64,000 nucleotides of DNA from Paracoccus sp. SCSIO 75233 (GTDB lineage: Bacteria > Pseudomonadota > Alphaproteobacteria > Rhodobacterales > Rhodobacteraceae): the NCBI RefSeq assembly GCF_027912675.1, contig NZ_CP115758.1, positions 124,001-188,000 on the forward strand, in the 5' to 3' direction. The translations under genes were made by a program, and so were the position numbers. This document shows positions 24,856-56,889 of this stretch, piece after piece; positions within the stretch are counted from its first letter, which is position 1, and each line of letters opens with the position of its first letter. Below the pieces are notes generated by a model, which saw nothing but the letters and a program-made list of their open reading frames with translations, was not told the origin of the DNA and did not search any database.

Positions 24856-24909
24856 CTCAGGGCGGGGAAAGCCGGCCTGACAAACGCAGGAGCGGGATAT
24901 GATGCCGCC

Positions 24910-26797: not shown

Positions 26798-27601
26798 TCA
26801 GGCGGTCAGGGACTGTTGACCCATCTTCTTCAGATTTCGAACGATTTCTTCGTGCATGATCCCTACGATCTCTTTTTCGGATCTCAAGATAACATCAGTT
26901 GGAGCGCCAACCCCGACAGCGAAAAGCCGCGAGTTCAGATGGTTAGGAAACGGCATGGAAATCAAGCCGCTCCCTTGAACCACCTGATCGGTTGAGAGGT
27001 AATAGCCCTTGGCACGGGTTTCTGCCAACGAGGCCACGAAAGCTTTCACATCCACTGCCGGTTTGTCGGGCGCGCGATAGGCGTTGATCCTGCGGAACAG
27101 ACTGCGCACTTCGTCGTCACTGAAACGACTCATCAGAACGCGCCCGACACCTGAGTTACCCAGCGGACGACGTGTCCCGAGCGATATGTGGTGGATCGGC
27201 GAATCTTTCGGGCGGACAACTTGCACGTACTCGGCTTCGTCCCCATTCTTGGTTGCCAGAACCACCACATGCCGTGTGCGTTCCGAAATTGCCTTGAGCA
27301 GCCGGTGGATGGTGCCTTCGCCGAACAGATCTGGATTCATCCACGACCCTAAAAGCGGAACGCGCTCGGTGGGAAAATAACTCTTCTTTCGGGCATCGTG
27401 GGTCAGAAATCCAAGCTTCACCAAGCTTTTGAGCAGCGCCGAGGTACTTGACTGCGGGTACCCCAGTTCCTTGGACACTTCCACGACCGAAAGCGGTCGC
27501 TGAACTTCATCGAAATACACCAAAGTCTGACAGGTGCGCGCCACCGATTTCACAATTTGATCGCCGCCTGTTCTTGCTGAAGTCTGATGCGCGGTTTCCA
27601 T
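26798..27601 (-). CDS. IclR-family transcriptional regulator
   Basis: A 267-aa regulator with an N-terminal winged HTH (LSVVEVSKELGYPQSSTSALLKSL, about residues 40-63) and a C-terminal IclR effector domain of GAF-like fold (LGTRRPLGNSGVGRVLMSR; AVGVGAP). The start is ATG 27601 after GGGAGGAG; a longer frame lacks a ribosome site. An 18-bp dyad lies just upstream, suggesting autoregulation. The neighbours are a ligase-ACAD-CaiB operon on one side (same strand) and, across the IS66, the 11-gene TRAP operon; either may be its target. Confidence 0.93.
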   Translation of the reverse strand: METAHQTSARTGGDQIVKSVARTCQTLVYFDEVQRPLSVVEVSKELGYPQSSTSALLKSLVKLGFLTHDARKKSYFPTERVPLLGSWMNPDLFGEGTIHRLLKAISERTRHVVVLATKNGDEAEYVQVVRPKDSPIHHISLGTRRPLGNSGVGRVLMSRFSDDEVRSLFRRINAYRAPDKPAVDVKAFVASLAETRAKGYYLSTDQVVQGSGLISMPFPNHLNSRLFAVGVGAPTDVILRSEKEIVGIMHEEIVRNLKKMGQQSLTA

Positions 27602-27616
27602 GATCTCCTCCCTTCG

Positions 27617-27634
27617 TGTGCAGTTATATGCACA
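27617..27634. promoter_or_regulatory. Dyad upstream of IclR gene (TGTGCA-N6-TGCACA)
   Basis: TGTGCAGTTATATGCACA has perfect 6-bp arms around a 6-bp AT-rich centre, 15 bp before the IclR start codon. The spacing fits an autoregulatory operator. The complement GTGCATATA resembles GCATATATGTG at about 23889, in front of the TRAP operon, on the far side of the IS66. Confidence 0.5.
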
Positions 27635-27745
27635 GCGTTCCATACGGAAGGATGGCCGCGCTTGTAAATTCTGTCAACTGTTAGAAAACTGCCGGGGGCA
27701 CGCCGCAAGCGGCTTGGGGATCAGGAAAGATTTCGGGTTCGGTTG

Positions 27746-29860
27746 TCAGTGGCCTCCTCGATTGGCGGGTATGATCACACCGTCAGCGGCGACGGCTCCC
27801 TGCCCGCTTGCTCCGACGATCAATGGATTGACATCAATGGTCTCAAGCGCGGCCCCGTGATGGGCGGCAAAAGCAGACAGTCGGGCAAGGGCGCCGGCGA
27901 GGGCGTCGATGTCGCGTTCGGGCGCGCCCCGGAATGCGTCCAGCAGTTTGCGGCTGCGGATTTCGTCAATCATACGGCGCGCTTCGACAGGTCCGAATGG
28001 TGCGACGCGGAAAGACACGTCTTCGAGGGCCTCGACAAACACCCCGCCCAGACCGAACATGACCACCGGGCCGAAAGCCGGGTCCTGGGTCACGCCGAGT
28101 ATAGCCTCCAGTCCAGGTGCTGCCTGTTCCGCCACGACCAGCCCGTCGATCCGCGCACCGGGCATCTTCTCGGACGCCAATTCCAAGATTCGTGCCCCGG
28201 CAGAGCGGACATCTTCGGCCGAACGCAGATCAAGCGCGACGCCCCCGATGTCGGATTTGTGCAAGATGTCGGGCGAGGCAATCTTCAGCACGACCGGGAA
28301 TCCCATTTCTTGCGCTGCCTGAGCTGCCGCTTCGGGGGTGGTGGCCAGGGTTTCGCGCACGATCCCGATTCCGGCCTCTGCAAGCAGGGCCTTGGCCTCG
28401 ATCTCGTTCACAATTCCGTCCGGCAACGGCGACAGGTTGGAGAGTTCGGGTATCGGGTCCTTTTCGCCTGCCCGCGCGAAGGAACGGGCAAAATAGCGCA
28501 ATGCGGCCATCGCCCGGACTGCACGGGTCGGTTCCTCGAACACGATGAACCCCGACTTTTCGTACGCGGCGCGCCCCTCTGGCTCTGTCAGCGAACAGAA
28601 CAGCATTGGCCGATCGGGATATTTCTCGCGAATGCGCTCCAGTCCGCGCCGAATGGCTTCGTTCAGGTCGGCGACAAGTCCGACCGTCGACATGAAGATG
28701 ATGGCCCCATCGATCTCGCCGTCACCAAACAACACATCCATGTTGGTTTCCAGAAGATCGATCTGGTTGACCAGCTGCGCCGTCACATCGACCGGGTTTC
28801 GGACACCGGCAAATGGCAGCACCTCTTTCAGCTTTTTCTGTGCATGATCGGGAAGCGCAGGCACGTCCAGTTTCAGCTTTTCGGCTTCGTCGGCCATCAG
28901 CACCCCGACCCCGCCCGAGACTGTCACAAGGCCCAGCCGGTCGCCCTGCATCATCGACGCGGATTCGGCACAGGCATAAGTCACATCGAACATTTCATCG
29001 ACCGATTGCGCCCGGTAAACGCCGTACTGCCGGAACGCCGCGTCATAAACCGCGTCTGCCCCAGCCAATGAGGCGGTATGCGACTGCGCGGCCTCTGCTC
29101 CGACCGCGCTGCGCCCGACCTTCATCATGACCACCGGCTTTCCCCGGGCCCGCGCCAGCTCAAGTGCCTCGACCAGCCTGTCGCGATCGGTTGCCCCTTC
29201 GAGATATCCCATGATGACGCGGGTATCGTCATCCTGCGCGCAATAGGCCACGGCATCGGCAAAATCGACATCGCAGGAATTGCCCGTCGTCGCCCAGATA
29301 TTGACCCCAAGTCCGCGCATTCGAACGAGCGTCATGCAATACGAGCCGAACGCGCCGCTTTGACTGACGATCGACACGCCGCCGGGTTTTGGCAGGTGTT
29401 TTTCGACCCCGGGCGTGAATGTCGCATAGAGGTTGTGGCGCACATTCGCGATGCCAAGGCAGTTCGGCCCCACAAGCCGCATGCCGCCCTCGCGCGCGAT
29501 GTCGACCATGCGCGCCTGAAGGGCGGCCCCGTCGGCATCGACCTCCGAGAACCCCGAACTGAAGATCACCGCCCCCCGCACACCTTGGGCCGCGCACTGT
29601 TCGACCGCCTGAACGGCCAGCGGCGCGGGCAGCGCGATCACGGCCAGGTCCGGTGTCGTGGGTGCCTCCGAGATCGACGGATACGCCGTCAGGCCCTGCA
29701 CCTCTGGCGATTTCGGGTTGATAGGCAGGATCGGGCCGTCGAAACCGTGCCGCTTGAGAAAATCCACCGGCCTTCCGCCGATGCGCTTGGGATCGCTTGA
29801 GGCGCCAATCACCGCTACCGAGCGAGGGTTGAAAATGGCATCCATTCCATGAATTCGCAT
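27746..29860 (-). CDS. ADP-forming acyl-CoA ligase, fused alpha-beta
   Basis: A 704-aa NDP-forming CoA ligase that makes acyl-CoA with ATP going to ADP. The CoA-binding Rossmann domain (SVAVIGASSDPKRIG), the ligase-CoA domain with phospho-His loop AAQSHTASLAGADAV, and the C-terminal ATP-grasp domain (FPVVLKIASPDILHKSDIGG; VVMFGLGGVFVEA) are in the usual order. The start ATG 29860 has AAAGGAA upstream. It is the last gene of CaiB (32295), ACAD (31050), ligase. The family layout matches the protein at 14821-16932 and the split pair at 32452-34535, so the window holds three versions. Confidence 0.94.
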   Translation of the reverse strand: MRIHGMDAIFNPRSVAVIGASSDPKRIGGRPVDFLKRHGFDGPILPINPKSPEVQGLTAYPSISEAPTTPDLAVIALPAPLAVQAVEQCAAQGVRGAVIFSSGFSEVDADGAALQARMVDIAREGGMRLVGPNCLGIANVRHNLYATFTPGVEKHLPKPGGVSIVSQSGAFGSYCMTLVRMRGLGVNIWATTGNSCDVDFADAVAYCAQDDDTRVIMGYLEGATDRDRLVEALELARARGKPVVMMKVGRSAVGAEAAQSHTASLAGADAVYDAAFRQYGVYRAQSVDEMFDVTYACAESASMMQGDRLGLVTVSGGVGVLMADEAEKLKLDVPALPDHAQKKLKEVLPFAGVRNPVDVTAQLVNQIDLLETNMDVLFGDGEIDGAIIFMSTVGLVADLNEAIRRGLERIREKYPDRPMLFCSLTEPEGRAAYEKSGFIVFEEPTRAVRAMAALRYFARSFARAGEKDPIPELSNLSPLPDGIVNEIEAKALLAEAGIGIVRETLATTPEAAAQAAQEMGFPVVLKIASPDILHKSDIGGVALDLRSAEDVRSAGARILELASEKMPGARIDGLVVAEQAAPGLEAILGVTQDPAFGPVVMFGLGGVFVEALEDVSFRVAPFGPVEARRMIDEIRSRKLLDAFRGAPERDIDALAGALARLSAFAAHHGAALETIDVNPLIVGASGQGAVAADGVIIPANRGGH

Positions 29861-29883
29861 GGGACTTCCTTTGATGTTCGTAA

Positions 29884-31050
29884 CTAGTAGGATTTTGGCA
29901 GGCCGAGGGCATGTTCCGCGATAAACGAAAGCACCAGCTGCGGGGTGACCGGCGCGATGCGGAACAGGATGGCCTCGCGAACAAGACGCTCGACATGGTA
30001 TTCCTTGGCGTATCCGAACCCCCCGAAGGTCAGCTGCGCGGTCTGTGTCGCCTTCACCGCCGCTTCGGCGGCCAGATATTTTCCTGCGTTGGCTTCATTT
30101 CCGCAGGGCTTGCCCGCGTCGTAGAGCGCGCCGGCGTGCATCGCCATCAGGTTGGCCGCCTCCAGTTCCGCCCAGCTGGCGGCCAGGGGGTGCTGTACAC
30201 CCTGATTCTGACCGATTGGTCTGCCAAAAACGACGCGCTCATTGGCGTAATCCGCGGCGCGCCGAAGCGCATTCCGCCCGATTCCGACTGCTTCAGCGGC
30301 AATTAGAACCCGTTCGGGGTTCAGCCCGTGCAGGATCTGACGAAAGCCCTGGCCTTCTTCGCCGATCAGATCCCCGGCGGGGATCGGAAGCCCGTCGATG
30401 AACAGTTCGTTCGAGTCGACACATTTGCGGCCCATCTTTTCGATCTCGCGCACGGTGACGAAAGATCGGTCCAGATCGGTGTAAAAAAGGCTTAATCCTT
30501 CTGTCGGTTTCTTGACGTCCTCAAGCGGGGTCGTGCGCGCCAGCAACAGGATCTTGTCGGCCTCCTGGGCGGTTGAAATCCAGACCTTCTGGCCGTGCAC
30601 CACATATCGGTCACCCTGTCGCACGGCGCGTGTTTTCAGTTTGGTGGTGTCCAGACCGGTTGTCGGCTCGGTCACCCCGAAACACGCACGTTCATCGCCT
30701 GCCACCAAAGGCGGAAGGTATTTCTTTTTCTGGTCATCGGTGCCGAATTTCACGACTGGGTTCAGACCGAAGATATTCATGTGAATCGCCGATGCGGCGC
30801 TGTTGCCGCCGCCGGATTCCGCAATGGCCTGCATCATGATCGCGGCATCGACGATGCCAAGACCGGCACCTCCGTACTCTTCGGGGATTGCAATCCCCAG
30901 CCAGCCATCGCGGGCCAGCTTTTGATGCAGCTCTCGCGGGAAACCGCCTACGCGATCGCGTGTCAGCCAGAATTCGTCGTCGAATTCTTCGCAGATCCGC
31001 AGGATCGCATCGCGGATTCCCTGCTGTTCGGATGTCATCTGATAGGTCAT
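29884..31050 (-). CDS. Acyl-CoA dehydrogenase (isovaleryl-type base position)
   Basis: A 388-aa ACAD. As in the enzyme at 1214-2377, the C-terminal EGT motif is replaced (FRIAPVTPQLVL, ending ALGLPKSY), while Glu in LNPER (about E247) occupies the base position of isovaleryl-CoA dehydrogenase. FGVTEPTTGLDTTKL and GQKVWISTAQ are the flavin-contacting strands. It sits between CaiB (30 bp) and the ADP-forming ligase (23 bp). Both copies of this subfamily are linked to a CaiB gene, which suggests a common two-step module. Confidence 0.94.
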   Translation of the reverse strand: MTYQMTSEQQGIRDAILRICEEFDDEFWLTRDRVGGFPRELHQKLARDGWLGIAIPEEYGGAGLGIVDAAIMMQAIAESGGGNSAASAIHMNIFGLNPVVKFGTDDQKKKYLPPLVAGDERACFGVTEPTTGLDTTKLKTRAVRQGDRYVVHGQKVWISTAQEADKILLLARTTPLEDVKKPTEGLSLFYTDLDRSFVTVREIEKMGRKCVDSNELFIDGLPIPAGDLIGEEGQGFRQILHGLNPERVLIAAEAVGIGRNALRRAADYANERVVFGRPIGQNQGVQHPLAASWAELEAANLMAMHAGALYDAGKPCGNEANAGKYLAAEAAVKATQTAQLTFGGFGYAKEYHVERLVREAILFRIAPVTPQLVLSFIAEHALGLPKSY

Positions 31051-31080
31051 GATTTTCTCCTCACGTCTTGCAGACCCGGC

Positions 31081-32295
31081 TCAGCGGCCCGGTTCGGCCA
31101 CAGTGCCTTGTTCGATTAGGGTGTCGATTTGCCCGGTGTCGTACGCGAGCTCTTGTAAAATCGCCCGGGTGTCAGCACCCAGTTCGCGGCGCCCAAGCCA
31201 GCGCAGCCGTCCCGGCGTCTTGTCCAGCTTTGGCACGGGTCCGACGACCTTGGTGTCGTCGCCCTCCACCCCAACAATGTCCCTTCGCGCGGCGATCTGC
31301 GGATCGGCCAGGATGTCATCGACGTCATAGACCATCGCAGCCACGGCATCGTGGGCCTGGAAGATGTCAATCGCCTTCTGCGCGTCATGCTGTGCCACAA
31401 ATGCGCCGAGACGGTCCACAATCTCGTCCATGTGCTCCGCGAAGCCATCGAGGCTTTGGAATTGCGGCTGTTCCGCCCATTCCTTTCCGCCCGCGGCTTC
31501 CAGAAGCCGCCGCCCGGTCGCGGCACTGCCTGCGCTGATTGTGACCCATTTCCCGTCGCGGGCGCGAAACACCCCCGCCGGGGCGTAGGAATTGGGCGCC
31601 TGGAGCCCGTTTCGGTCAACCGGCAGCCCCGCGCCGGTTCGCGTCGGAACGTGATAGTCGATCAGGCGCAACAGCGGCTCGAAAATAGCCAGGTCCACCA
31701 CTTGCCCCCGGGCGCGGCCGTTCTGCACCGCATGCAGCGCCATCATCGCGCCGTAGGCCGCCATCAGGCCTGTGGTCGAATCCGCAGCGGGAAAGCCGGG
31801 GTGCATCGGCGCGTTGTCGGCAAAGCCGGTGATGTGCGCCAGTCCGCTCATGGCCTCGCCGGCCCGACCGAAACCCGGCCACGAGGCGCGCGGCCCCGTC
31901 TGGCCATAGCCCGAGATCCGCACGATCACCAGATCGGGGTTCCACTCATGCAGGACCTCTGGGGCCAACCCTGCCCGTTCCAGAACACCGGGTCGAAAGT
32001 TCTCGATAAGCACATGGGCGTTTTCGACCAGCCGGCGCAGAATGGCGCGGCCGTCTTCACTCTTCCAATCCAGCGCCATCAGACGCTTGTTTCGTGCCAG
32101 GGTCTTCCACCAGGCGCCAACGCCATCACTGGCCCGCGCGCTCAGTACCCGCAGCATGTCACCCTGCCCCGGACGCTCGATCTTGACCACGTCGGCGCCA
32201 AAATCGGACAGCAATGCGCCGCACATCGGTGCTGCGATCACATGCCCCAGTTCAATCACCCTGACATCGCTCAGTGGCCCATTTTCCATTTTCAC
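31081..32295 (-). CDS. CaiB/BaiF family CoA-transferase, variant active site
   Basis: A 404-aa class III CoA-transferase homologue: VIELGHVIAAPMCGALL, GADVVKIERPGQGD and SGYGQTGPRASWPG are typical. At the place where the CaiB protein at 3254 has AFDDLIQARSG, including the catalytic-type Asp, this one reads GFGRAGEAMSG. It therefore lacks the Asp and belongs to a divergent subgroup whose mechanism I cannot assign. It is first in the operon CaiB-ACAD-ligase and divergent (156 bp) from the plus operon at 32452. Confidence 0.88.
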   Translation of the reverse strand: MKMENGPLSDVRVIELGHVIAAPMCGALLSDFGADVVKIERPGQGDMLRVLSARASDGVGAWWKTLARNKRLMALDWKSEDGRAILRRLVENAHVLIENFRPGVLERAGLAPEVLHEWNPDLVIVRISGYGQTGPRASWPGFGRAGEAMSGLAHITGFADNAPMHPGFPAADSTTGLMAAYGAMMALHAVQNGRARGQVVDLAIFEPLLRLIDYHVPTRTGAGLPVDRNGLQAPNSYAPAGVFRARDGKWVTISAGSAATGRRLLEAAGGKEWAEQPQFQSLDGFAEHMDEIVDRLGAFVAQHDAQKAIDIFQAHDAVAAMVYDVDDILADPQIAARRDIVGVEGDDTKVVGPVPKLDKTPGRLRWLGRRELGADTRAILQELAYDTGQIDTLIEQGTVAEPGR

Positions 32296-32451: not shown

Positions 32452-33867
32452 ATGGCAGAGCCAAACACGAATCGAATGACGGCATGCCGGCCCACGGTAG
32501 CCGACGCACTGGACGGGTTGTTCGACCCTCGCACCATTGCGGTGGTCGGCGCGTCCCGCACCAAGGGCAAGTTGGGGCAGGCCGTCATGGCCCTGCTGAA
32601 GAGCAACGGTTACAGCGGCACGATTATCCCCGTGAACCCTTCGGGCGGCGAGATCGAAGGCCTTCCGGCTGTGCGCAGTCTGGACGAGATTGACAGCCCG
32701 ATCGACGTGGTTGTGCTGGCAACGCCGGTCGGGGTCGCGCTGGACGCTCTGGAGACCTGCACCAGGCTCGATGTAAAGGTCGTGGTCGGGGTCACCTCGG
32801 GCTTTTCCGAAGCCGGGGAAGAAGGGCATGACAACGAAGAGCGCTTGCGCCGGATCATGCAAGACGCGCCCTTCAGACTGGTCGGACCGAACTGCGAAGG
32901 CGTGGTGCGCCCCGCGGCGGACCTGCAACTGACCTTCAGCCCGATGTTCAACGATCTTCGGCCTGGTCCCGTGGCCATGATTTCCCAGTCCGGCGCGCTT
33001 GCGGGCCTTATGGCGTTGCGCCTGGGCGAACGCGGCGTGGGCATCAACGCCATCGTTTCCAGCGGCAACGAAACCGACCTGACCGCAGCGGACCTGCTGG
33101 ATTATCTGGGCAACGACCCCCAGACGCGGGTGGTTCTTTGCTACGTCGAGGAACTGCGCGACGGACGCCGTTTTTCCGAAGCGGCCCAGCGGCTGACACA
33201 GGCGGGGAAGCATATTGTCGCGGTCAAGGGTGGGCGCAGCCGCGCCGGGTCACGCGCGGTCCAGTCGCATACCGGCGCCATGGCCGGGGACGACCGGGTG
33301 ATCAGCGCGGTCTTTCGCGAAACCGGTGTCATCCGCGCCCGTGAATCCGTCGCCGCCGTCGATGCCGTGACGGCGCTCGCCGCGGGTCGACGACCTGCCG
33401 GAAACAGGGTCGGGATCATTTCTGTCACCGGCGGGCTTGGCGTCGAAATGACCGACTTGGCCGAAAGCGCCGGCTTCGAGGTTCCGGTGCTGGATGAAAC
33501 GACGCAGACGGCGCTGTCGCGCTATGTGCCCTTTTATGGGTCGGTGACAAACCCGGTCGATCTGACCGGTGTGGTTTTGGCGAATCCCACATATGTCGGA
33601 CGCTGTCTGGAGGCCGTTGCCGCCGATCCGGGCGTGGATATTGCCATCGCAATTATCACATTTGTGCCAGATCAGCAGTTCATCGAGGCCTTGGCCGAGG
33701 CGTTCGACAGCACAGACAAGCCGATTCTGATCGTCTGGACCGGTTCGGCACGCAGCAATGCCTCGGGCGAGGCGCTGCGCGAACGAGCCGTTCCTGTCTA
33801 TGATTCGCCCGCTCGGGCGGCATCGGGCCTCGCCGCACTCGCGGTCGCGACAGGAGAAGTGGCATGA
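32452..33867 (+). CDS. ADP-forming acyl-CoA ligase, alpha-type subunit
   Basis: A 471-aa stand-alone CoA-binding and ligase half of an NDP-forming acyl-CoA synthetase. The CoA-binding domain (TIAVVGASRTKGKLGQA) and the phospho-His loop (AVQSHTGAMAGDDRV) are present, and the ATP-grasp domain is encoded by the next gene. The start is ATG 32452 after GGAGGAAAG; the upstream ATG at 32425 has no such site. It heads a six-gene operon that ends in DUF35. The split form contrasts with the fused ligases on the minus strand nearby. Confidence 0.92.
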   Translation: MAEPNTNRMTACRPTVADALDGLFDPRTIAVVGASRTKGKLGQAVMALLKSNGYSGTIIPVNPSGGEIEGLPAVRSLDEIDSPIDVVVLATPVGVALDALETCTRLDVKVVVGVTSGFSEAGEEGHDNEERLRRIMQDAPFRLVGPNCEGVVRPAADLQLTFSPMFNDLRPGPVAMISQSGALAGLMALRLGERGVGINAIVSSGNETDLTAADLLDYLGNDPQTRVVLCYVEELRDGRRFSEAAQRLTQAGKHIVAVKGGRSRAGSRAVQSHTGAMAGDDRVISAVFRETGVIRARESVAAVDAVTALAAGRRPAGNRVGIISVTGGLGVEMTDLAESAGFEVPVLDETTQTALSRYVPFYGSVTNPVDLTGVVLANPTYVGRCLEAVAADPGVDIAIAIITFVPDQQFIEALAEAFDSTDKPILIVWTGSARSNASGEALRERAVPVYDSPARAASGLAALAVATGEVA

Positions 33868-34535
33868 CCCAAAGAGAAACGCTGGAAAACTGGCAGCGTG
33901 CCGGGCGCACGGTTATCCACGAGGCCGATGCGAAGGATCTGCTGCAACGGATTGGAATCCCGGTGCCCCGACGTGACCCCGACCACGGGCGCTGTGTCGC
34001 CAAGCTGTGTCACGATGACTATCCGCATAAGTCCGATCACGGGCTCGTCCGTTTGGGTCTTTCCCCCGACGAGGCGAAACAGGCCGCCGCGGAAATGGCG
34101 GAACGTTTTGCGGGCGGCACGGCGCTGATCGAGGAAATGGAAGAAGGGTCCGTGGCCGAATGGATTATCGGCTGCAAACGCGACGACACCTTTGGTCCGA
34201 TCGTTCTGGCCGGTCCTGGCGGCATCCTTGTAGAACTGATTGATGCCGCCGAAATCAGGCTTGCGCCCGCCACCCCGCAAACTGCCGCGGCCATGCTGCG
34301 ATCGGGTCCGGGGGCGCGGTTGCTGACTGGACTACGCGGCGCAGAACCGGCCGACAAAGATGCCCTGGCAGACCTGATTTCACGCATATCTGTTTTCTTT
34401 GCCGAGAACGCCGATCTGATCTCGGAAATTGAAATCAACCCTGTGATGGTTCGGGCCGACGGGAAGGGATTGGTCGCCGCCGATGCCTTGATCGTTTTGT
34501 CATCAAAGGCGGACGGACAGGAGAAATCAACGTGA
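33864..34535 (+). CDS. ADP-forming acyl-CoA ligase, ATP-grasp subunit
   Basis: A 223-aa ATP-grasp domain protein completing the ligase encoded by the preceding gene (ATGA overlap). Landmarks are VAKLCHDDYPHKSDHGLVRLG (the ATP-grasp lysine strand and HKSD loop), FGPIVLAGPGGILVELI, and ISEIEINPVMVR, which holds the metal-binding residues. The two proteins probably form a heteromeric acyl-CoA synthetase. The subunit is slightly shorter than the same domain in the fused enzymes, with some loop loss near the N-terminus. Confidence 0.9.
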   Translation: MTQRETLENWQRAGRTVIHEADAKDLLQRIGIPVPRRDPDHGRCVAKLCHDDYPHKSDHGLVRLGLSPDEAKQAAAEMAERFAGGTALIEEMEEGSVAEWIIGCKRDDTFGPIVLAGPGGILVELIDAAEIRLAPATPQTAAAMLRSGPGARLLTGLRGAEPADKDALADLISRISVFFAENADLISEIEINPVMVRADGKGLVAADALIVLSSKADGQEKST

Positions 34536-35032
34536 TACGTCACCCTTTTGGAGAGTTGTCACTTGGCCAGACCGGCATTTCGAGCGGTCGGACGATGACC
34601 GAAACCGATGTCGTCAATTTCTGCATGTTGACCGGGAACTGGCTGGAACTTCACTCCAACGTCGAGCACGCCAAATCGTCTCTGTATGGCCAGCGCCTCG
34701 TGCAGGGCAGCCTCGTGTTCTCGATCGTCAATGCGATGATCCCCTTCGACAGTTCCGTGCTGGCCGCTTTCTATGGCTGTGACAAGCTACGCTTTTTGCG
34801 GCCCACTTTTATCAACGACACCCTTTGGGCCCGCACCGAAATCATCGACCTGAAGGACCATGACGAAAGGCACGGCGTCGTGACCAGCAAACTGGAAGGC
34901 ATCAACCAGCGGGACGAAACGGTCCTGCGCTGCGAGTTCAGCCTGCTGATCCGCAAGTCGCGTCTGGATCGCCCCGGAGAACCGGCCAAAATCCGTGCGG
35001 CGCACGACAAGACACAAGGACAGAGCGCATGA
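34532..35032 (+). CDS. MaoC-like hot-dog protein with altered dyad
   Basis: A 166-aa MaoC-family protein. Compared with the intact hydratase at 16925-17416 (GDFNRLHVD, IAHG), the motif here is GNWLELHSN followed by LVQG: the catalytic Asp is Asn while the His remains. It may be a non-catalytic partner, a binding subunit, or an enzyme with changed chemistry. GTG 34532 overlaps the previous stop, with GGAG upstream; ATGA overlap with the ACAD follows. In steroid side-chain degradation MaoC-like subunits work as heteromers with a DUF35-bearing partner; here a DUF35 gene is in the same operon. Confidence 0.9.
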   Translation: MIRHPFGELSLGQTGISSGRTMTETDVVNFCMLTGNWLELHSNVEHAKSSLYGQRLVQGSLVFSIVNAMIPFDSSVLAAFYGCDKLRFLRPTFINDTLWARTEIIDLKDHDERHGVVTSKLEGINQRDETVLRCEFSLLIRKSRLDRPGEPAKIRAAHDKTQGQSA

Positions 35033-36171
35033 ACTTTCTGACACCCGAGCAAGAGATGTGGCGCGCCACCGTCGAGCGTTTCGTCGACGAAGAGATCGGC
35101 CGCGATTATATCCGCAATTGCGACCGCGAGCGCAAATACCCCTACGAAGCCTATGAAAAAGTGGCCAAGCAGGGCTGGCTCGGCATCCTGTTTTCAGAAG
35201 AGAGCGGCGGTCTTGGCGGTGACATCATGGATTATGCCCTGATGTGCGAAGGGTTGGCCAAATACGGCTTTGACTTCTCGACCGGGTTGATGGTGGCGAC
35301 GTTCACCGCGATGAATGTCGAGAAATTCGGCACGCCCGAGCAAAAAGAGCGGTACATCCAGCCCTTCCTCAATGGCGACATCCGCTTTTCGATCTCGATT
35401 TCCGAACCGGGCGCGGGGTCGGATGCGGCATCGACAAAGACCCGCGCGCGGCGCGACGGCAACGGCTGGGTCGTCAACGGGCAGAAACTGTGGTGCTCGG
35501 GCGCTGCGGCCGATAACGCAATCCTTGCAATGCTGACCCGGACCGACCCCGACGCGCCCAAACACAAGGGGCTGTCGGTTTTCCTGATCCCCAATGACAC
35601 CGAAGGTCTGGACATCCGCAAGCTGCCGACCATGGCGCGCCGCGCAACCGGCACCACCGAGATTTTCGTGGACGACGTGAAACTGCCGGCCGATGCGCTG
35701 CTGGGCACGGAAAACGATGGCTGGAAGATCATCACCGACCATCTGGAACTGGAACGCGTGGCCGTGGCCGCCGCCTATGTGGGCAATGCCCAGACAGCCG
35801 TAGACGATGCTCTGCGCTACGCCCACGAACGGATTCAGTTCGACAAGCCGATCTTCGACTTTCAGGTGATCCGCCACATGCTGGCCGACATGCAGACCCA
35901 GGTCGATGCCGCCCGGCTGTTGGTTTATCGCGCCGCCAGCCTGGCCGCAGCCAAGACGCCCTGCACGCGAGAGGTCTCGATGGCAAAGCTCTATGCCTCC
36001 GAGACGCTGCAGACGGTGACGCGCAACGGAATGCAGATCCTGGGTGGCCACTCGATGCTGCCCGAAGCAGATATGGAGCGGTATTTCCGCGAAGGGATGC
36101 AAAGCACCATCGGCGGCGGAACCTCGCAGATTCAGCGTACGCTCATCGCCAAGACCATGCGCCCGGGCTAA
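35029..36171 (+). CDS. Acyl-CoA dehydrogenase (isovaleryl-type base position)
   Basis: A 380-aa ACAD with FSISISEPGAGSDAAS and GQKLWCSGAA. The canonical EGT position is GGGTSQIQR, without Glu, but HLELERVAVAA provides Glu at the isovaleryl-CoA dehydrogenase base position (about E242). It is probably an active enzyme that introduces the double bond whose hydration and cleavage the flanking MaoC-like and thiolase-like proteins would perform. It overlaps the MaoC-like gene by 4 bp; the thiolase-like gene follows after 47 bp with a strong GAAGGAG site. Confidence 0.94.
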   Translation: MNFLTPEQEMWRATVERFVDEEIGRDYIRNCDRERKYPYEAYEKVAKQGWLGILFSEESGGLGGDIMDYALMCEGLAKYGFDFSTGLMVATFTAMNVEKFGTPEQKERYIQPFLNGDIRFSISISEPGAGSDAASTKTRARRDGNGWVVNGQKLWCSGAAADNAILAMLTRTDPDAPKHKGLSVFLIPNDTEGLDIRKLPTMARRATGTTEIFVDDVKLPADALLGTENDGWKIITDHLELERVAVAAAYVGNAQTAVDDALRYAHERIQFDKPIFDFQVIRHMLADMQTQVDAARLLVYRAASLAAAKTPCTREVSMAKLYASETLQTVTRNGMQILGGHSMLPEADMERYFREGMQSTIGGGTSQIQRTLIAKTMRPG

Positions 36172-36218
36172 CAGTTCGGGGCGCACCGGGACAGCCCGAC
36201 AAGAAGGAGAAAGAGCAT

Positions 36219-37391
36219 ATGAAGAACGGACGAGAACCGGTGGTCGTCGGCATCGCCGACGCGCCGCTGAAGGACGGCAAGTTCGTCACCAAGGCTTCGG
36301 TCCTTGGTCATGCCGCATTTGTGGCAAAAGCCGCCGTCGAAGAAGCAGGACTGAAGTTGAGCGATGTCGACGGTCTTCTGACGGCCGGCATGTGGGGGGT
36401 CCCCGGCCCCGGCCAACTGGCCACGGTGACGCTGGGCGAATATCTGGGCATCATGCCGACATTCGTCGATGGCACGAATATTGGCGGTTCGGCATTCGAG
36501 GCCCATATCGCACATGCCGCCATGGCTCTTCGCGAAGGCTATTGCGAGGTTGCGCTGATTGTCTACAGCTCGGACCAGAAATCCCTGCGCAGCCGCAATC
36601 TAGGGGGTCGGCCTTCAGTCCTGTCCATGCAGCATGAAACGCCTTACGGAATGCCCACGCCTGTGGGCGGCTATGCGATGGCCGCACAGCGCCATATGCA
36701 TGAATTTGGCACCACGTCCGAGAATCTGGCCGAAATCGCCGTCGCGACGCGGAAATGGGCACAGTTGAACCCCGAGGCGACGCGTCGCGATCCGCTGTCC
36801 ATTGACGACGTGCTGTCCAGCACGATGATCTCGGAGCCGCTGCATCTGCTCGATTGCTGTCTCGTCACCGACGGGGCCGGCGCCCTCGTCATGACCACCG
36901 CCGAGCGGGCCAAGGACCTCAACACCCGTCCCGTCGCGGTCAAGGGCTATGGCGAGGCGCATACCCACTGGGCCATCGGCGAAATGCCGGACCTCGCCCG
37001 CCTGCTTCCCGCGCAAAAGGCCGGGGAACGCGCAATAAAAATGGCCGGGGTGAGCCATTCGGATATCGACCTGGTCGAGATCTATGACAGCTTTACCATC
37101 ACCGTGCTGCTCTCGCTCGAGGCTCTCGGCTTCTGCAAGATCGGCGAAGGCGGGGATTTCGTGTCGGGCCAGCGCACGGCACCAGGCGGGGCGTTCCCAA
37201 TGAACACCAGCGGCGGCGGCCTCTCGGCGCTGCATCCGGGCATGTTCGGAATGTTCCTGCTGATCGAGGCCGTCCGGCAGCTTCGCGGCGAAGGCGGCGA
37301 GCGCCAGGTCAAGGGCGCCGAGACCGCTCTGGTGCATGGTACCGGGGGTACGCTTTCCTCAGGTGCGACCGTGATTTTGCAGAAGGGCTAA
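36219..37391 (+). CDS. Thiolase-superfamily protein lacking catalytic Cys (Ltp2-like)
   Basis: A 390-aa protein of the SCP-x/lipid-transfer thiolase group. Both thiolase cysteines are missing: at the acyl-Cys position it reads DGTNIGGSAFE, and near the C-terminus VHGTGGTLSSG. The NTSGGGLSALHPGMFGM loop, with a His-Pro, is retained. Cys-less members such as actinobacterial Ltp2 act as retro-aldolases in complex with a DUF35 protein, and here a DUF35 gene follows directly. A retro-aldol cleavage of a 3-hydroxyacyl-CoA is therefore my leading hypothesis; ordinary thiolysis is unlikely. A paralogue lies at 57282-58427. Confidence 0.9.
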   Translation: MKNGREPVVVGIADAPLKDGKFVTKASVLGHAAFVAKAAVEEAGLKLSDVDGLLTAGMWGVPGPGQLATVTLGEYLGIMPTFVDGTNIGGSAFEAHIAHAAMALREGYCEVALIVYSSDQKSLRSRNLGGRPSVLSMQHETPYGMPTPVGGYAMAAQRHMHEFGTTSENLAEIAVATRKWAQLNPEATRRDPLSIDDVLSSTMISEPLHLLDCCLVTDGAGALVMTTAERAKDLNTRPVAVKGYGEAHTHWAIGEMPDLARLLPAQKAGERAIKMAGVSHSDIDLVEIYDSFTITVLLSLEALGFCKIGEGGDFVSGQRTAPGGAFPMNTSGGGLSALHPGMFGMFLLIEAVRQLRGEGGERQVKGAETALVHGTGGTLSSGATVILQKG

Positions 37392-37395
37392 GACG

Positions 37396-37800
37396 ATGAG
37401 CATTGAAAAACCGCTTCCGGTGATCGACCATGACAGTGCCCCCTATTGGGAGGCCACGCGCGAGGGCCGCCTCGACATCCCGCTTTGCGGCGATTGCGGC
37501 AAACATCATTTCTATCCCCGCTCTATTTGCCCGTATTGCCATTCCGACAATCTGCGCTTCAACACCGTGAGCGGACGCGGCAAGGTGCATACCTTCACCA
37601 TCGCGCGCCGTCCGGCAGGGCCGACTTTCGCGGATGACGTGCCATATGTCGTGGCATTGATCGAGCTGGAGGAAGGCCCCCGGATGATGAGCCGGATCCA
37701 GACCGGCGACCCCGAGAAGGTTCATATCGGGGCCAAGGTGGAAGTGACGTTCGTCAAGGCAACCGACGAAGTGACTTTTCCCTACTTCAAAATGACCTGA
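37396..37800 (+). CDS. DUF35 OB-fold zinc-ribbon protein
   Basis: A 134-aa protein: an N-terminal helix (APYWEATREGRLD), a rubredoxin-like zinc ribbon with two CxxC pairs (LCGDCGK and ICPYCHSD), and an OB-fold (GRGKVHTFTIARR; MMSRIQTGD) proposed to bind the CoA part. DUF35 proteins are obligatory partners of thiolase-like enzymes in archaeal HMG-CoA synthesis and of Ltp2 aldolase in steroid degradation. It lies 4 bp after the Cys-less thiolase-like gene, last in the operon, and is followed by a strong terminator. Confidence 0.94.
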   Translation: MSIEKPLPVIDHDSAPYWEATREGRLDIPLCGDCGKHHFYPRSICPYCHSDNLRFNTVSGRGKVHTFTIARRPAGPTFADDVPYVVALIELEEGPRMMSRIQTGDPEKVHIGAKVEVTFVKATDEVTFPYFKMT

Positions 37801-37834: not shown

Positions 37835-37871
37835 GAAGAGCCGTCGCAGAGGTTGTCTGCGGTGGCTCTTC
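37835..37871 (+). terminator. Strong rho-independent terminator
   Basis: A 16-bp stem (GAAGAGCC... pairing with ...GGCTCTTC, with two G-T pairs inside) closes a 5-base loop and is followed by GCTTTTC. It ends the plus operon 32452-37800, 34 bp after DUF35. It faces the convergent TRAP permease gene ending at 37884 and may act for both strands. Confidence 0.82.
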
Positions 37872-37883
37872 GCTTTTCGGAGG

Positions 37884-39827
37884 TCACCCGGCGCGGCCGG
37901 GCTGCGGTGCTCCGCGCAAAAACCGCCACGCCAAGAGCCCGGCCAGCGCCAGCCCACCAACGATGTCGGCCGCAGGCGCGGCGTAAAACAGCAAGCCGGC
38001 AGCCGACAGGAACAGCAACCGGCCGATGACCGGCACCTTTCCACGAAACCAGCCGCTTGTGCCGACGCTGACGGCAAAAACCGCGGCGCAGGCCACGCCC
38101 ATATCCAGTAGGATTTGCACCGTGCCGCCCTGGGCCAGTATGCCCGGCCGGAACACAAAGAGAAACGGCACCACATAGATCGCTCCGGCCAACATCAGCG
38201 CGCGACCCGCCACCCGCCAGAAATTGGCCCCTGCCAGGGCGGCGGCGGCATAGACACTGGCGCAGACCGGTGGCGTGATGGCCGACAGGATCGCATAGTA
38301 GAAGACAAAAAGATGAGCCGTCAGTTCGGGTAGGCCAAGCCGCACGAGACTGGGCGCGGCGATTGCCGCCGCCAGCACATAGGAGGCCGTCGTCGGCACG
38401 TCCATACCCAGCAAGATCGCCAGCACCGCCGCCAGCAACAGGGCCACGATCAACCCCTGACCGGACACAGAGAACAACAGGTTCGAGACTTTGACCCCGG
38501 CACCCGTCGCCGTCAGAACCTTGACGACGATGGCGGCGCAGGCTAGCAGCGCGGCGATCATCACCAACGCCCGCCCTGCTTCGATCATCCCCTCATAGAG
38601 GTCGCGCGCCAGCTTGGCCCAAGAGGCCAGCACGCCCTGCTCTCTTCCGTCACGCGCGAACGGGCGCACCACCACACAGGCCAAAACCAGTATGATAACA
38701 GCACCGGCACCTGCAAAGCTCGGCGTGTAGCCGTTGAACAGGAAGTAGACCATCGCCGCGATGGGAAGAAACAAGGGAATTGACTTGTCCGGTGCGAGGA
38801 ATTCCGCCGGTTCGGGCATTTCGCTCCTCGGTGTCGGTTGCAACCCTGTGCGACGCGCATAGAGATCCACCCCGAGCCATACCGCCAGGTAGTAGAGAAA
38901 TGCCGGACCGATCGCCGCAACGACAATGTCGGTATAGGGAATGTTCAGGAACTCAGCCATGATGAAGGCCGCTGCCCCCATCACCGGCGGCGTAAGCTGG
39001 CCGGCGGAGGAGGCAACGGCCTCGACCGCCCCGGCAAAGGCCGGTGGATAGCGCAGCCGCTTCATCGTGGGAATGGTGATCGAGCCGGTCGCCATGACGT
39101 TGGCCACTGCCGAACCGGTCACCGTCCCGAACATCGCCGAAGACAGGGCACAGACCTTTGCCGGGCCGCCATACGTTCGACCGGCGATCCACGTTGCCAT
39201 TTTCATGAAAGCATCCGTTGCCCCGGTCGACAGCAGGAGCGCCCCCAGAAGCACATAGATCACGATGACCCGTGCCCCGATATCCGCAAGGTAGCCGAAC
39301 AGGCCGGTGGTCGAGCTGTAAAATGTCTCGACAGCGGTACGTGCCGAAACGCGCGGCGGGCGCCAGGCGCCGTCGATCAGGTCATAGCCGAAATAGAAAT
39401 AGATCACGGTGCAAAGGGCCAGCAGCGGCAGGAACCATCCGATCACCCGGCGCGCGGCCTCGAGGGTCAGCAGAACAGCTATCAGACCTGCCGCCTTGTC
39501 GATCGGCCCATAGCGCACCATGATATCCGAAAAGCGATCCCGGTTCAGGATCACGTAGAGGCAAACCGCGAACGCCAGTAGTCCCAGCATGATGTCCACA
39601 GCCCGTTCAATCCCGCTTCGCGCACCGGTCCGCGAGGCGCGTGCCGCATAAAGAAAGAACGCGCCGCCGATACCGAAACCGATAAAGATCGGCCGCTGAA
39701 CCAGCGGTTCGAACTGCCCGAATAAGGCATTGTAGAAATGCAGAGCGACGAATGCCGCCAACAATACTCCAAGCGCCTGCCCTCCGCGCCGTTCCCAATT
39801 GGGTATTGCGGTCGATGTCTGCGTCAT
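37884..39827 (-). CDS. TRAP transporter fused permease (TAXI type)
   Basis: A 647-aa fusion of the small and large TRAP membrane subunits, the form that works with TAXI binding proteins. The N-terminal third corresponds to the four-helix small subunit; the rest is the large subunit with MFGTVTGSAVANVMATGSI, LTPPVMGAAAFIMAEF and ITPPVCASVYAAAAL. Extra hydrophobic segments follow at the C-terminus. It is the last gene of a minus operon with a CoA-transferase pair, 89 bp after the TAXI binding protein. The substrate is unknown; the coupled CoA-transferase suggests an organic acid. Confidence 0.94.
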   Translation of the reverse strand: MTQTSTAIPNWERRGGQALGVLLAAFVALHFYNALFGQFEPLVQRPIFIGFGIGGAFFLYAARASRTGARSGIERAVDIMLGLLAFAVCLYVILNRDRFSDIMVRYGPIDKAAGLIAVLLTLEAARRVIGWFLPLLALCTVIYFYFGYDLIDGAWRPPRVSARTAVETFYSSTTGLFGYLADIGARVIVIYVLLGALLLSTGATDAFMKMATWIAGRTYGGPAKVCALSSAMFGTVTGSAVANVMATGSITIPTMKRLRYPPAFAGAVEAVASSAGQLTPPVMGAAAFIMAEFLNIPYTDIVVAAIGPAFLYYLAVWLGVDLYARRTGLQPTPRSEMPEPAEFLAPDKSIPLFLPIAAMVYFLFNGYTPSFAGAGAVIILVLACVVVRPFARDGREQGVLASWAKLARDLYEGMIEAGRALVMIAALLACAAIVVKVLTATGAGVKVSNLLFSVSGQGLIVALLLAAVLAILLGMDVPTTASYVLAAAIAAPSLVRLGLPELTAHLFVFYYAILSAITPPVCASVYAAAALAGANFWRVAGRALMLAGAIYVVPFLFVFRPGILAQGGTVQILLDMGVACAAVFAVSVGTSGWFRGKVPVIGRLLFLSAAGLLFYAAPAADIVGGLALAGLLAWRFLRGAPQPGRAG

Positions 39828-39916
39828 GTTCTCTCCGAGAGCGGTAACGGCGGGGTGCCCGCAGCACCCCGTCTGGATCAGCCTATGGCCGCCGTCGTGA
39901 CGGCCCGCGATTCCGG

Positions 39917-40888
39917 TCAGCTTCCGGCCGCCTCTCTCCAGTAACGTTCCGCACCTGGATGATAGGGTATACCGGTCTCGATTGTGGCGACGGCATCGGC
40001 GGCGATGTCGTAATCCGCAAGCTGCGGCCAGGCTTCGACCAGCAGGTCCATGTTCTGGTGGATGCTGCGAGCGATGTCATAGGCGCTCTGGTCATCCATG
40101 ACGCCGGTGCGGGTCAGGAAGAAGACGTTGAGCTTGGGTACCCGCATTTCCTCGGATCCCGGAATAAGCCCTGCGGGAAGAGTCGTGAAACCGACGCCCT
40201 CCATGGCTTCTGTCGCCGCTTTCTCCTGCTCTTCGGTGAAGCCGATCAACCGCATCTTGGTGCTTGTCATCAACTCTTGCAGGGTTGCATCGACAGAGTT
40301 TGCGGCCCCGTATTTGCTATAACCGATGATCTGGCGGTTCTTGATGCCTTCCACCGCGTCGCCAACGGCGCCATGCACCAGGTCCGCGTTGATATCGAAC
40401 ATGGACAGGACACCGGTCGTCAACGTCTCGGCCGCCGATCCGCGGATGCCGGGATTGAACTTCTTTCCGTCCAGTTCGTCCAGCGTCGTCACACCAGACT
40501 CTTCGGTGACCGCGATCAGCAGGATCGAGGCGCTGTAAGGATAAAGCGCAACCGTATCTGGGATTGCGTTACCTTCGAACTTGCCGGTCCCGTTTCTGGC
40601 GGAGATCAGAATGTCGGTGGTGGCAAGCCCAAGGTCGATCTCGTCGCGCGCCAGCCGCAGCACATTGTCCACGCTGGCCCCGGTTTCGATCACGCTGACA
40701 TTGGTGCCTTCCATGCCGGTCTCGATCGCCTTGCTCATCGCAACCGAAATGGTGAAATGGCTCGACGTCGGGCTGGTCGTGCCCATCGTGAGATCCTTGG
40801 CAGATGCCGCGCCGCCAAGGGCTATCGCGCCCATGGCCGCGATAGCACCCACCGCCGCCCGGTATCCGGTCAACTTGCGTTGGATCAT
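39917..40888 (-). CDS. TAXI-family TRAP solute-binding protein
   Basis: A 323-aa periplasmic receptor of the TAXI group, structurally distinct from DctP. The signal peptide (AVGAIAAMGAIALGGAASA) is followed by LTMGTTSPTSSHFTISVAMS, and the TAXI-type ending is IPYHPGAERYWREA. The ribosome site GGGAGGA precedes ATG 40888. It lies 45 bp after the CoA-transferase beta subunit. Confidence 0.94.
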   Translation of the reverse strand: MIQRKLTGYRAAVGAIAAMGAIALGGAASAKDLTMGTTSPTSSHFTISVAMSKAIETGMEGTNVSVIETGASVDNVLRLARDEIDLGLATTDILISARNGTGKFEGNAIPDTVALYPYSASILLIAVTEESGVTTLDELDGKKFNPGIRGSAAETLTTGVLSMFDINADLVHGAVGDAVEGIKNRQIIGYSKYGAANSVDATLQELMTSTKMRLIGFTEEQEKAATEAMEGVGFTTLPAGLIPGSEEMRVPKLNVFFLTRTGVMDDQSAYDIARSIHQNMDLLVEAWPQLADYDIAADAVATIETGIPYHPGAERYWREAAGS

Positions 40889-40933
40889 TTTATCCTCCCG
40901 TTTTTGCCTTTAAAGTAACGTCAGCCCGGTCGC

Positions 40934-41701
40934 TTAAGCACGCAGGGCCCCCGATGTATCGATCCGCTCTCTCAGAACGCGCAATTCTTCCTCCGTTGGT
41001 GGCCGCGTTTGCGGCACCTCGCCTCTGATCGCCAGATCGAACCCCGTATGACGCTGGACCTCTTCGGGCGTATTTCCCGCATGCACCGATTTCAGTCGCA
41101 TTCGCAGCGTCGTCTTGTCGAAATCCATAACCGCTCGCGGTGTCACCACCAGGCGCGGTCCTTCATTGACCAGCCCGGCGTCGCGTTTCGCGGCAGGCCC
41201 GGACAGATGTCCGGGTATTGTGATGAAATCGACCGTTTCCACAAAGTTTCGCGCCGTATGCACGGTGGGGCAAATGTAATACCGCGACGAGGTGTGGCAG
41301 TATGACAGGTTTGCTGCCCCCGGCCCGCGCATCTTTGGTGCGTGCAGCGTGCCGCCGACGTGGTGCAGGTTGATGTTGCCGTACACATCGTGCTGCAAGC
41401 CACTGTGAAAGAAAAAATCCAGCCCGTGATGGCTGTGGCCGAACAACTCGATAAAGGTCTCGGCGGCCTCGCAGCGGCCGAGCGCACGATCGTCCAGCAT
41501 CGACGGATACAAACGCCCCGGCTCGGGGTTGAAGAACATCTCGCCGCCGACCGTCAGGTTCGGTGCATGCAGCTCGCGGGCTAGCGCAATGGCCGCCATC
41601 GGCACCAACGCGGCTGCACCCGCCGCACCCAGTTCTCCGTCGGCCAGATCGCGGGCCAACACGACGACCATCTGTTCAATTGGGGAAACCGCTGCACTCA
41701 T
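40934..41701 (-). CDS. Class I CoA-transferase, beta-type subunit
   Basis: A 255-aa beta-type subunit of a two-chain CoA-transferase of the glutaconate/3-oxoacid class. Typical are APNLTVGGEMFFNPEPG, FFHSGLQHDVYGNINL, and the VTPRAVMDFDKTTLRMRLKS C-terminal region. I could not place the catalytic Glu with confidence. Homologues of this pair in steroid-degrading bacteria (IpdAB) are not transferases but ring-opening hydrolases, so the reaction is open. It overlaps the alpha gene by 4 bp. Confidence 0.88.
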   Translation of the reverse strand: MSAAVSPIEQMVVVLARDLADGELGAAGAAALVPMAAIALARELHAPNLTVGGEMFFNPEPGRLYPSMLDDRALGRCEAAETFIELFGHSHHGLDFFFHSGLQHDVYGNINLHHVGGTLHAPKMRGPGAANLSYCHTSSRYYICPTVHTARNFVETVDFITIPGHLSGPAAKRDAGLVNEGPRLVVTPRAVMDFDKTTLRMRLKSVHAGNTPEEVQRHTGFDLAIRGEVPQTRPPTEEELRVLRERIDTSGALRA

Positions 41702-42651
41702 TCGTTCCGTGCCTCGGCTTCGAGCACGGCGAAATACCCGGCTCCCCCGACCGCTTCGATGTAGTCGCTCTGGTTTTTCGGTCCGGTCACATGGCGGGCG
41801 ATATAGGTGTCCAGCCCCGTGCTGTCGCCGGTCCGGGCGGCATCCCCCAGATCGGCGTAGGCGTCGATATGGTCCTCGTCCATCGCATAGTTGGGAAAGC
41901 TCGCGGTTGGGTGCGCGCCATAGGGCACCTCGACCACGGCATCGACATAATAAGACGGCACGGTAACCCGCGAGGGATCGTCCAGAACGACCTCGTCCGG
42001 CACGATCCGGTCCACGCTGGCAATGACCATGTCAGACGCGCGTGCCATCAGCTGATCGGCGTAGACCATCGTGCTGAGATGGCGCAGGTTTCCCCAACGG
42101 TCGGCTTCCTGCGCGTGCAAGAACGTCACTCTGGGGCGGATCGGCCCGACGGCGTGAATACGGCGGCCGGAGAACGGGCAGTCGATTTCGTGCAAAAGCG
42201 GGTTGTGCTTCAGAACGTCCGATCCGCGCAGCGCGTCGATTGGCTGGAACGGCACGCCATGAGCCGACGCCATCAGCCCGCCCACCACGGTCAGCGCATC
42301 CAGCGCGTGCGCGGTCACCTGCCCTGCCTCGACCGCGCGGCGGAAATTGGGGCAAAGCCGGTTTTCCAGCGTAACGCCGGGAATAAAGACCTGTGCGACC
42401 GCGCCTGCCGCAATCATCAGGTCGACATCATACCCCGCGCCCGGCGAGGAATACACATGCAGACCATCTGCGCCCGCGGCCAGCAACGCGCGCACCAGTG
42501 CGACAGGGCGGCTTTGCTTGAACAGACCACCGAGACAAAGCTCGGGGCGTTCTTCCAAAGCGCCTCGTGCCAGCCGGGCTGCGTCTTGCAGGCCTGTGAC
42601 CTTGCTGCGACGTGTGGGTTTCGCTTGGCCTTCCATCGTTGGGCGTGCCAC
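41698..42651 (-). CDS. Class I CoA-transferase, alpha-type subunit
   Basis: A 317-aa alpha-type subunit. The GYDVDLMIAAGAVAQVFIPG and VTFLHAQEADRWGNL segments are typical of glutaconate-type CoA-transferases. It heads the operon alpha-beta-TAXI-fused permease, so import and CoA charging (or, if IpdA-like, ring hydrolysis) are co-expressed. A perfect CACATATGTG palindrome lies 81 bp upstream of the start. Confidence 0.9.
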   Translation of the reverse strand: MARPTMEGQAKPTRRSKVTGLQDAARLARGALEERPELCLGGLFKQSRPVALVRALLAAGADGLHVYSSPGAGYDVDLMIAAGAVAQVFIPGVTLENRLCPNFRRAVEAGQVTAHALDALTVVGGLMASAHGVPFQPIDALRGSDVLKHNPLLHEIDCPFSGRRIHAVGPIRPRVTFLHAQEADRWGNLRHLSTMVYADQLMARASDMVIASVDRIVPDEVVLDDPSRVTVPSYYVDAVVEVPYGAHPTASFPNYAMDEDHIDAYADLGDAARTGDSTGLDTYIARHVTGPKNQSDYIEAVGGAGYFAVLEAEARNE

Positions 42652-56888: not shown

Positions 56889-56889
56889 G

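Follow-up and report, generated by a model that had tools for sequence, protein, structure and literature searches.

How an acyl-CoA could be shortened by a thiolase-fold enzyme that has no cysteine at the nucleophile position is the question raised by a six-gene operon in Paracoccus sp. SCSIO 75233, located at positions 32452-37800 of the 64,000-nucleotide stretch analysed here (contig NZ_CP115758.1, positions 124,001 to 188,000; the window). The fifth gene encodes a thiolase-fold putative retro-aldolase (THL) and the sixth a DUF35 protein. Judged by tree, residues and DUF35 partner, THL is grouped with the Ltp2 and Sal aldolases and not with the Cys thiolases, and by sequence it is neither Ltp2 nor Sal but falls in a supported clade apart from both, which is marked by Tyr289, Ser291 and a His339 of thiolase type. 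An earlier examination of the letters alone (the sequence-only reading) had described an operon with a split ligase, a MaoC protein, an acyl-CoA dehydrogenase, a thiolase-like protein and DUF35 at this site, and both its coordinates and its gene types were right; its preference for retro-aldol cleavage over thiolysis is likewise favoured by the residues, the tree and the DUF35 partner. Open reading frames and a profile search give the six genes in the order ligA-ligB-MaoC-acyl-CoA dehydrogenase-THL-DUF35, all on the plus strand, followed by a hairpin:

32452..33867, plus strand: ligA, alpha part (CoA-binding and Succ_CoA_lig) of a split ADP-forming acyl-CoA ligase; PF13607 E 1.5e-51, PF13380 E 1.3e-22
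33864..34535, plus strand: ligB, ATP-grasp part of the ligase; PF13549 E 1.6e-40
34532..35032, plus strand: MaoC hot-dog protein; PF01575 E 1.9e-15, best PDB match 1q6w at E 4.8e-30
35029..36171, plus strand: acyl-CoA dehydrogenase; PF00441 E 7.7e-48, aligned to 7y0a and 8sgs
36219..37391, plus strand: THL, thiolase-fold putative retro-aldolase; Gly90, Tyr289, Ser291, His339
37396..37800, plus strand: DUF35 partner, zinc ribbon and OB fold; PF01796 E 4.2e-23, PF12172 E 4.5e-13
37835..37871, no strand assigned: hairpin between convergent genes (a TRAP gene lies opposite), probable terminator

In THL, Gly90 stands where the N-terminal active-site helix of thiolases begins with their nucleophilic Cys, and Tyr289, in the motif YDSF, aligns with the catalytic Tyr of Ltp2 and Sal. 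Residues were counted in an alignment of 85 rows (the window and 84 loci), one of which was blank, leaving 84 rows with letters; the nucleophile position is Gly and position 289 is Tyr in 84/84, and both are also invariant in a separate 59-row alignment. Residue 291 is Ser in 63 rows (Ala in 8, Cys in 7, His in 5, and Asp in 1), and residue 339 is His in 77 (Tyr in 5 and Gln in 2). The description of the protein as "Cys-less" holds for the catalytic positions but not for the whole chain, which has four other cysteines (109, 213, 214, and 306). Four paralogues in the same genome keep the nucleophile Cys and read His-Asp where THL reads Tyr-Asp. In the available parts of one study, the equivalent Tyr is indispensable to Sal and serves as the base in Ltp2, and Gly in place of Cys is the stated reason that Sal is incapable of thiolysis (PMC12329534). 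The DUF35 partner carries the zinc ribbon motif C31-x2-C34-x10-C45-x2-C48, and its predicted structure, modelled apart from THL, has a pLDDT of 94 and a TM score of 0.90 to the DUF35 of Sal. With Gly for Cys, a catalytic Tyr and an adjoining DUF35 gene, THL falls within the broad kind of thiolase-fold aldolases with a DUF35 partner. Its PDB matches are 4u4e (E 2.5e-128), then Sal (1.2e-59) and Ltp2 (1.7e-45). The fold itself was not taken as proof of an aldolase because the VIA-align and Foldseek lists mix aldolases with archaeal Cys thiolases and cannot separate the latter.

The main tree was built from 55 of 71 rows, six having been removed because their branches were long or sequence was missing (own_L101, L079, L070, L084, own_L099, and L064) and ten for thinning. 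The third clade, with THL, is supported at 99/99 and the Ltp2 and Sal clades at 100/100 each. The placement among Cys thiolases that had been named beforehand as refuting was not found; THL falls outside them, with a split of 100/99, and a topology uniting five THL and five Cys rows was rejected narrowly (p-AU 0.043). Ltp2 as sister of the third clade is weak (82/66). A quick tree of 70 rows is in agreement and does not place L070, L079, or L084 in the third clade. Among the 120 nearest matches listed for THL, Sal and Ltp2, which as nearest matches only are uninformative on intermediates, three signatures hold without exception, namely G-Y-S-F-H for THL, G-Y-C-Y-Q for Sal, and G-Y-H-F-Y for Ltp2; other motifs occur in the locus set (YDAF/His in 8, YDHF/His in 5, YDCY/Tyr in 5, and YDCF/His, YDDY/Gln and YDCY/Gln in 1 each). 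THL differs from a Cys-dependent thiolase in Gly90 at the nucleophile and in tree position, from Ltp2 in YDSF/His339 instead of YDHF/Tyr344 and in the grouping of the Ltp2 rows at 100/100 without THL, and from Sal in Ser291 and His339 instead of YDCY with Cys304 and Gln352. PRK08313 and PRK07937, which we take to be Ltp3- and Ltp4-like (names unconfirmed), were also rejected as a home for THL, as they fall outside the clade with YVPF or other motifs; two of the PRK07937 rows (L123 and L126) are frames picked in error that duplicate two PRK08313 rows, and the other four are separate.

By record title, third-clade rows come from Pseudomonadota, Actinomycetota, Chloroflexota, Bacillota, Tectomicrobia, Thermodesulfobacteriota, and one halophilic archaeon, several of them being metagenome bins. 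At E <= 0.001, THL is matched by 7998 of 8000 scored candidates, a number that does not imply clade membership of all. Some match was found in 33 of 61 genomes searched (its own, 1 of the same genus, 35 of the same family, and 24 of the same class), and a close orthologue (95-100%) in 2 of them, its own counted. Among the best matches in open-licence papers, nothing was found on the function of the third clade or of the plasmid block described below, and within this literature only Ltp2 and Sal of the Cys-less group had catalytic residues dissected. The sole solved third-clade structure among those found, 4u4e, a "putative thiolase" of Sphaerobacter thermophilus, is not mentioned in the 10 papers listed among 29 matches or in the available parts of PMC12329534, and no function was found for it.

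Compared with known systems, the bile acid aldolase Sal-Shy of Comamonas testosteroni (9myr) has Cys304, and Gln where THL has His339, and its DUF35 has a Cys3His1 zinc site and is fused to MaoC, whereas the DUF35 here is Cys4 and free-standing. In the cholesterol side-chain aldolase Ltp2-ChsH2 (6ok1), Ltp2 has YDHF and the acid Tyr344 in place of YDSF and His339, the two lie in separate clades, and the ChsH1-ChsH2 heteromer of that system is absent here. The proposed likeness to an igr-type module (ChsE1/2, ChsH1/H2, and Ltp2) stands for the enzyme classes but not for the details; in that module, one half of a MaoC heteromer has a His/Asp dyad and DUF35 is fused to the other, whereas this operon has one MaoC with Asn36/His41 in place of the dyad, a free-standing DUF35, and an aldolase of the third clade and not of Ltp2's. 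In Mycolicibacterium neoaurum, as here, the aldolase gene atf1 and a free-standing DUF35 gene (chsH4) share one operon, and the source, as far as available, calls both key genes; unlike THL, Atf1 is 56% identical to Sal1, lies near it in the published tree, and is given a steroid substrate. The ibuprofen enzyme IpfDE, likened to THL by description only, is similarly plasmid-borne and non-steroidal, and its step is called retro-aldolase in the available parts of a paper that also writes "ipfDE-encoded thiolase"; it differs in acting after a ring dioxygenase (PMC9195938).

The operon as a whole probably encodes a four-step shortening of an acyl-CoA by retro-aldol chemistry, a reading that rests on sequence comparison. 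The split ADP-forming ligase would, from its family, form the CoA thioester, the acyl-CoA dehydrogenase would give a 2-enoyl-CoA, and the MaoC protein would add water to yield a 3-hydroxyacyl-CoA, probably a tertiary alcohol. THL with DUF35, by analogy with its homologues, would then cut the C2-C3 bond by a retro-aldol reaction, with Tyr289 taking the proton from the 3-hydroxyl and His339 as the likeliest acid returning a proton to the enolate, so that acetyl- or propionyl-CoA and a ketone or aldehyde would be released. A ligase, a dehydrogenase, a hydratase and a Cys-less Tyr enzyme in an operon with no 3-hydroxyacyl-CoA dehydrogenase fit such a retro-aldol shortening. The ligA product scores 396 bits against TIGR02717, under its 567 cut-off. 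In the dehydrogenase, aligned to 7y0a and 8sgs, Glu242 lies within LELER and Gly363 stands where short-chain acyl-CoA dehydrogenases have Glu; Glu242, at what is presumably the base position of isovaleryl-type enzymes, is probably the catalytic base.

Hydration by the MaoC protein is the weakest step of this route. Numbered from GTG 34532 (the RefSeq start lies 21 codons later), the Asp of the dyad is replaced by Asn36 in 27/27 aligned rows, while His41 is kept in 26/27. Hydration would nonetheless be compatible with this pair, because 8hgn (beta-methylmalyl-CoA dehydratase) and 4e3e have Asn and His at these positions in the second domain. A second MaoC-like protein, encoded at 49247-49738 on the minus strand, has both catalytic residues replaced (Met and Phe; TGMLEVLF), a loss kept in two relatives at 91-93% (L022 and L087), and the MaoC adjoining THL on the Polaromonas JS666 plasmid is likewise without both. 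By analogy with ChsH1/ChsH2, a pairing of catalytic and inert MaoC proteins encoded apart may be offered as a lead.

The coding regions overlap or nearly touch at four of the five junctions (33864/33867, 34532/34535, 35029/35032, and 37391/37396, the last with a 4-base gap), and 47 bases separate the dehydrogenase gene from THL. The ligA open reading frame opens at ATG 32425; the ATG at position 32452 lies in the same frame and coincides with the start that RefSeq gives on the near-identical plasmid. A simple scan listed no promoter-like site upstream of ligA. That the operon is terminated, as had been claimed, finds support in the hairpin at 37835-37871, which has an uninterrupted 16-bp stem with two G-U pairs followed by GCTTTTC and folds better than most shuffles (z -2.37; 4/200 equally good), but the hairpin was not listed by the simple scan, in which terminator-like sites numbered 5 vs 5.1 in shuffles. 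It is the probable operon terminator.

Several other readings of the operon were weighed against retro-aldol cleavage of a tertiary alcohol to a ketone. A secondary 3-hydroxyacyl-CoA could instead be cut to an aldehyde, the product released by Sal; Atf1, with ChsH4, has been assigned the same chemistry in the part of its source available, and the ibuprofen step is described, in the available parts of its paper, as a retro-aldolase yielding propionyl-CoA (PMC9195938). Against this, Glu242 of the dehydrogenase stands at a position that points to a branched substrate, and none of the genes listed for the Sagittula plasmid introduced below, the PLSDB table of which is incomplete, bears the name aldehyde dehydrogenase; a xanthine-dehydrogenase-family gene pair at 244-247 kb of it is a possible aldehyde oxidase. 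An aldehyde product is unlikely on balance, though it deserves more weight than the remaining alternatives. A thiolase-fold enzyme for acyl transfer, condensation or decarboxylation, using His339 without a nucleophilic Cys, is a still poorer prospect: His339 is widely kept, as counted above, PhlABC and MucABC acyltransferase complexes have DUF35-type chains too, and both RefSeq and PRK06158 (NCBIfam; 486 bits, cut-off 421) name THL acetyl-CoA acetyltransferase, but the invariance of Gly and Tyr289 in both alignments and the trees that set THL apart from Cys thiolases speak against it.

A true steroid side-chain module of the igr or Sal/Shy type shares the same enzyme classes, and among PDB matches to THL, 4u4e is followed by Sal and Ltp2. 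It is rejected as highly improbable on the separate clade and signature, on the single operon MaoC without its Asp, and on the absence of a ring-degradation set from what was searched, in keeping with the sequence-only reading, which had seen no steroid ring genes. No such set is named among the listed Sagittula plasmid genes, and no KshA_C match was found in the genome, a weak test in that KshA_C matched 1/14 control genomes, below cut-off. The genes listed for the Sagittula plasmid do include an extradiol dioxygenase of class III, at 240.5 kb; steroid extradiol enzymes belong to a class other than III.

For the retro-aldol route, a small beta-branched or alicyclic-acetate acid is a more likely substrate than a steroid, in line with the sequence-only reading, which had proposed a branched or cyclic acyl-CoA and a possibly novel substrate, although any single substrate is proposed far less firmly than the route itself. 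The ligase, dehydrogenase, hydratase and lyase order on a tertiary 3-hydroxyacyl-CoA is that of cyclohexylacetate degradation, which ends with (1-hydroxycyclohexyl)acetyl-CoA lyase (EC 4.1.3.35). In the parts of the sources available, this lyase is listed among orphan activities, with no sequence to compare (PMC1940265), and cyclohexaneacetic acid is assigned "unknown" EC numbers (PMC4591350). A step of this type need not be steroidal, because a comparable one serves the ibuprofen pathway (PMC9195938, as far as available). Isoprenoid or methyl-branched acids are suggested by the presence on the Sagittula plasmid of AtuA, HMG-CoA lyase and three sets of biotin-dependent carboxylases, and small, possibly dicarboxylic acids by the TRAP, CaiB and glutaconate-type CoA-transferase genes beside the operon. 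It is quite possible, though short of probable, that THL represents a third, catalytically distinct retro-aldolase family with a Tyr289/His339 pair (vs Tyr/Tyr in Ltp2 and Tyr/Cys in Sal), which acts on non-steroid beta-branched or alicyclic acids, could include the gene lacking for orphan lyases such as EC 4.1.3.35, and is now spreading among marine Roseobacters by conjugative plasmid. Third-clade proteins occur widely, often under the name acetyl-CoA acetyltransferase; if they are aldolases, many bacteria and some archaea have misannotated pathways for branched and alicyclic acids, and candidate genes become available for a long-standing orphan lyase reaction.

The window matches plasmid unnamed2 of Sagittula sp. 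P11 at 99.99% identity over 48,222 bases and at 99.98% over the remaining 15,778; this plasmid of 274 kb has genes for RepABC, a relaxase and a T4SS, and its assigned type is conjugative. Over the 17 kb that surround the operon, identity is 99.994-100% in Salipiger pentaromativorans, Sedimentitalea nanhaiensis, Mesobacterium pallidum, and Lutimaribacter pacificus, and a plasmid of Sulfitobacter alexandrii matches the operon region at 100.0%. Near-identity across several genera implies very recent spread. For positions 27000-50000, 25 of 31 matching plasmid records hold at least 80% in one place, vs only 2 of 113 for positions 1-24000, and hence it is the block surrounding the operon that stays together as a unit. 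The operon thus lies within a conserved block of ~23 kb on a conjugative plasmid, a setting that the sequence-only reading had not contained, and it belongs to the mobile catabolic DNA of the Roseobacter group. Papers on Sulfitobacter plasmids name pDSM110277_a and, in the parts available, give no function for the block (PMC9025767; PMC13386836). Because several marine genera carry the genes on a near-identical conjugative plasmid, the trait is open to test by plasmid curing.

Beside the operon and elsewhere in the genome lie the following features:

26798..32295, minus strand: divergent block of IclR, fused ADP-forming ligase, acyl-CoA dehydrogenase and CaiB CoA-transferase, the last three conserved with the operon
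37884..42651, minus strand: fused TRAP permease, TAXI receptor and two glutaconate/IpdAB-type CoA-transferase subunits, conserved with the operon
56866-58427: further THL/DUF35 pair of the same clade, with YDAF in place of YDSF
own genome (G000), C15:135067-136437: another such pair (L114), also with YDAF

The complete set (fused ligase, dehydrogenase and CaiB; the operon; TRAP, TAXI and two CoA-transferase subunits) is present in 24 of 28 Rhodobacterales loci (L005-L032), and this recurrence, together with the THL E-values (4u4e, 2.5e-128), is more than chance. Among the incomplete loci, contig ends truncate L027 and L030, L017 begins late and has no match to the operon dehydrogenase, and L022 is without both the middle and the right-hand block. 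Within the CoA-transferase pair (40934-42651, minus strand), one subunit is nearest to 6coj (E 1.1e-22), which we take to be IpdA with a steroid-ring role, and the other to glutaconate CoA-transferase 1poi_B (E 5.2e-26). A noisy tally of neighbours in 28 of 52 loci outside L005-L032, in which many chosen frames look spurious, gave 9 AMP-binding, 6 short-chain dehydrogenase and 6 acyl-CoA dehydrogenase matches among 130 frames. On plasmid 2 of Polaromonas JS666 (L086 and L090), a 72% THL with DUF35 lies in a large cluster with two carboxylase sets, HMG-CoA lyase and, farther off, a P450. In the Paracoccus genome itself, locus L113 (G000, C25) holds a row of Rieske dioxygenase subunit-like and reductase-like frames, judged by eye, with an AMP-ligase match, a Sal-like YDDY protein and DUF35, which is reminiscent of the ibuprofen ipf genes. 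In the left part of the window, the gene at 14006-14824 (minus strand), a citryl-CoA lyase by its RefSeq name, has a match to the C-terminal domain of citrate synthase, and an IS66-type insertion element at 24089-26466 (plus strand) is found on the Sagittula plasmid too.

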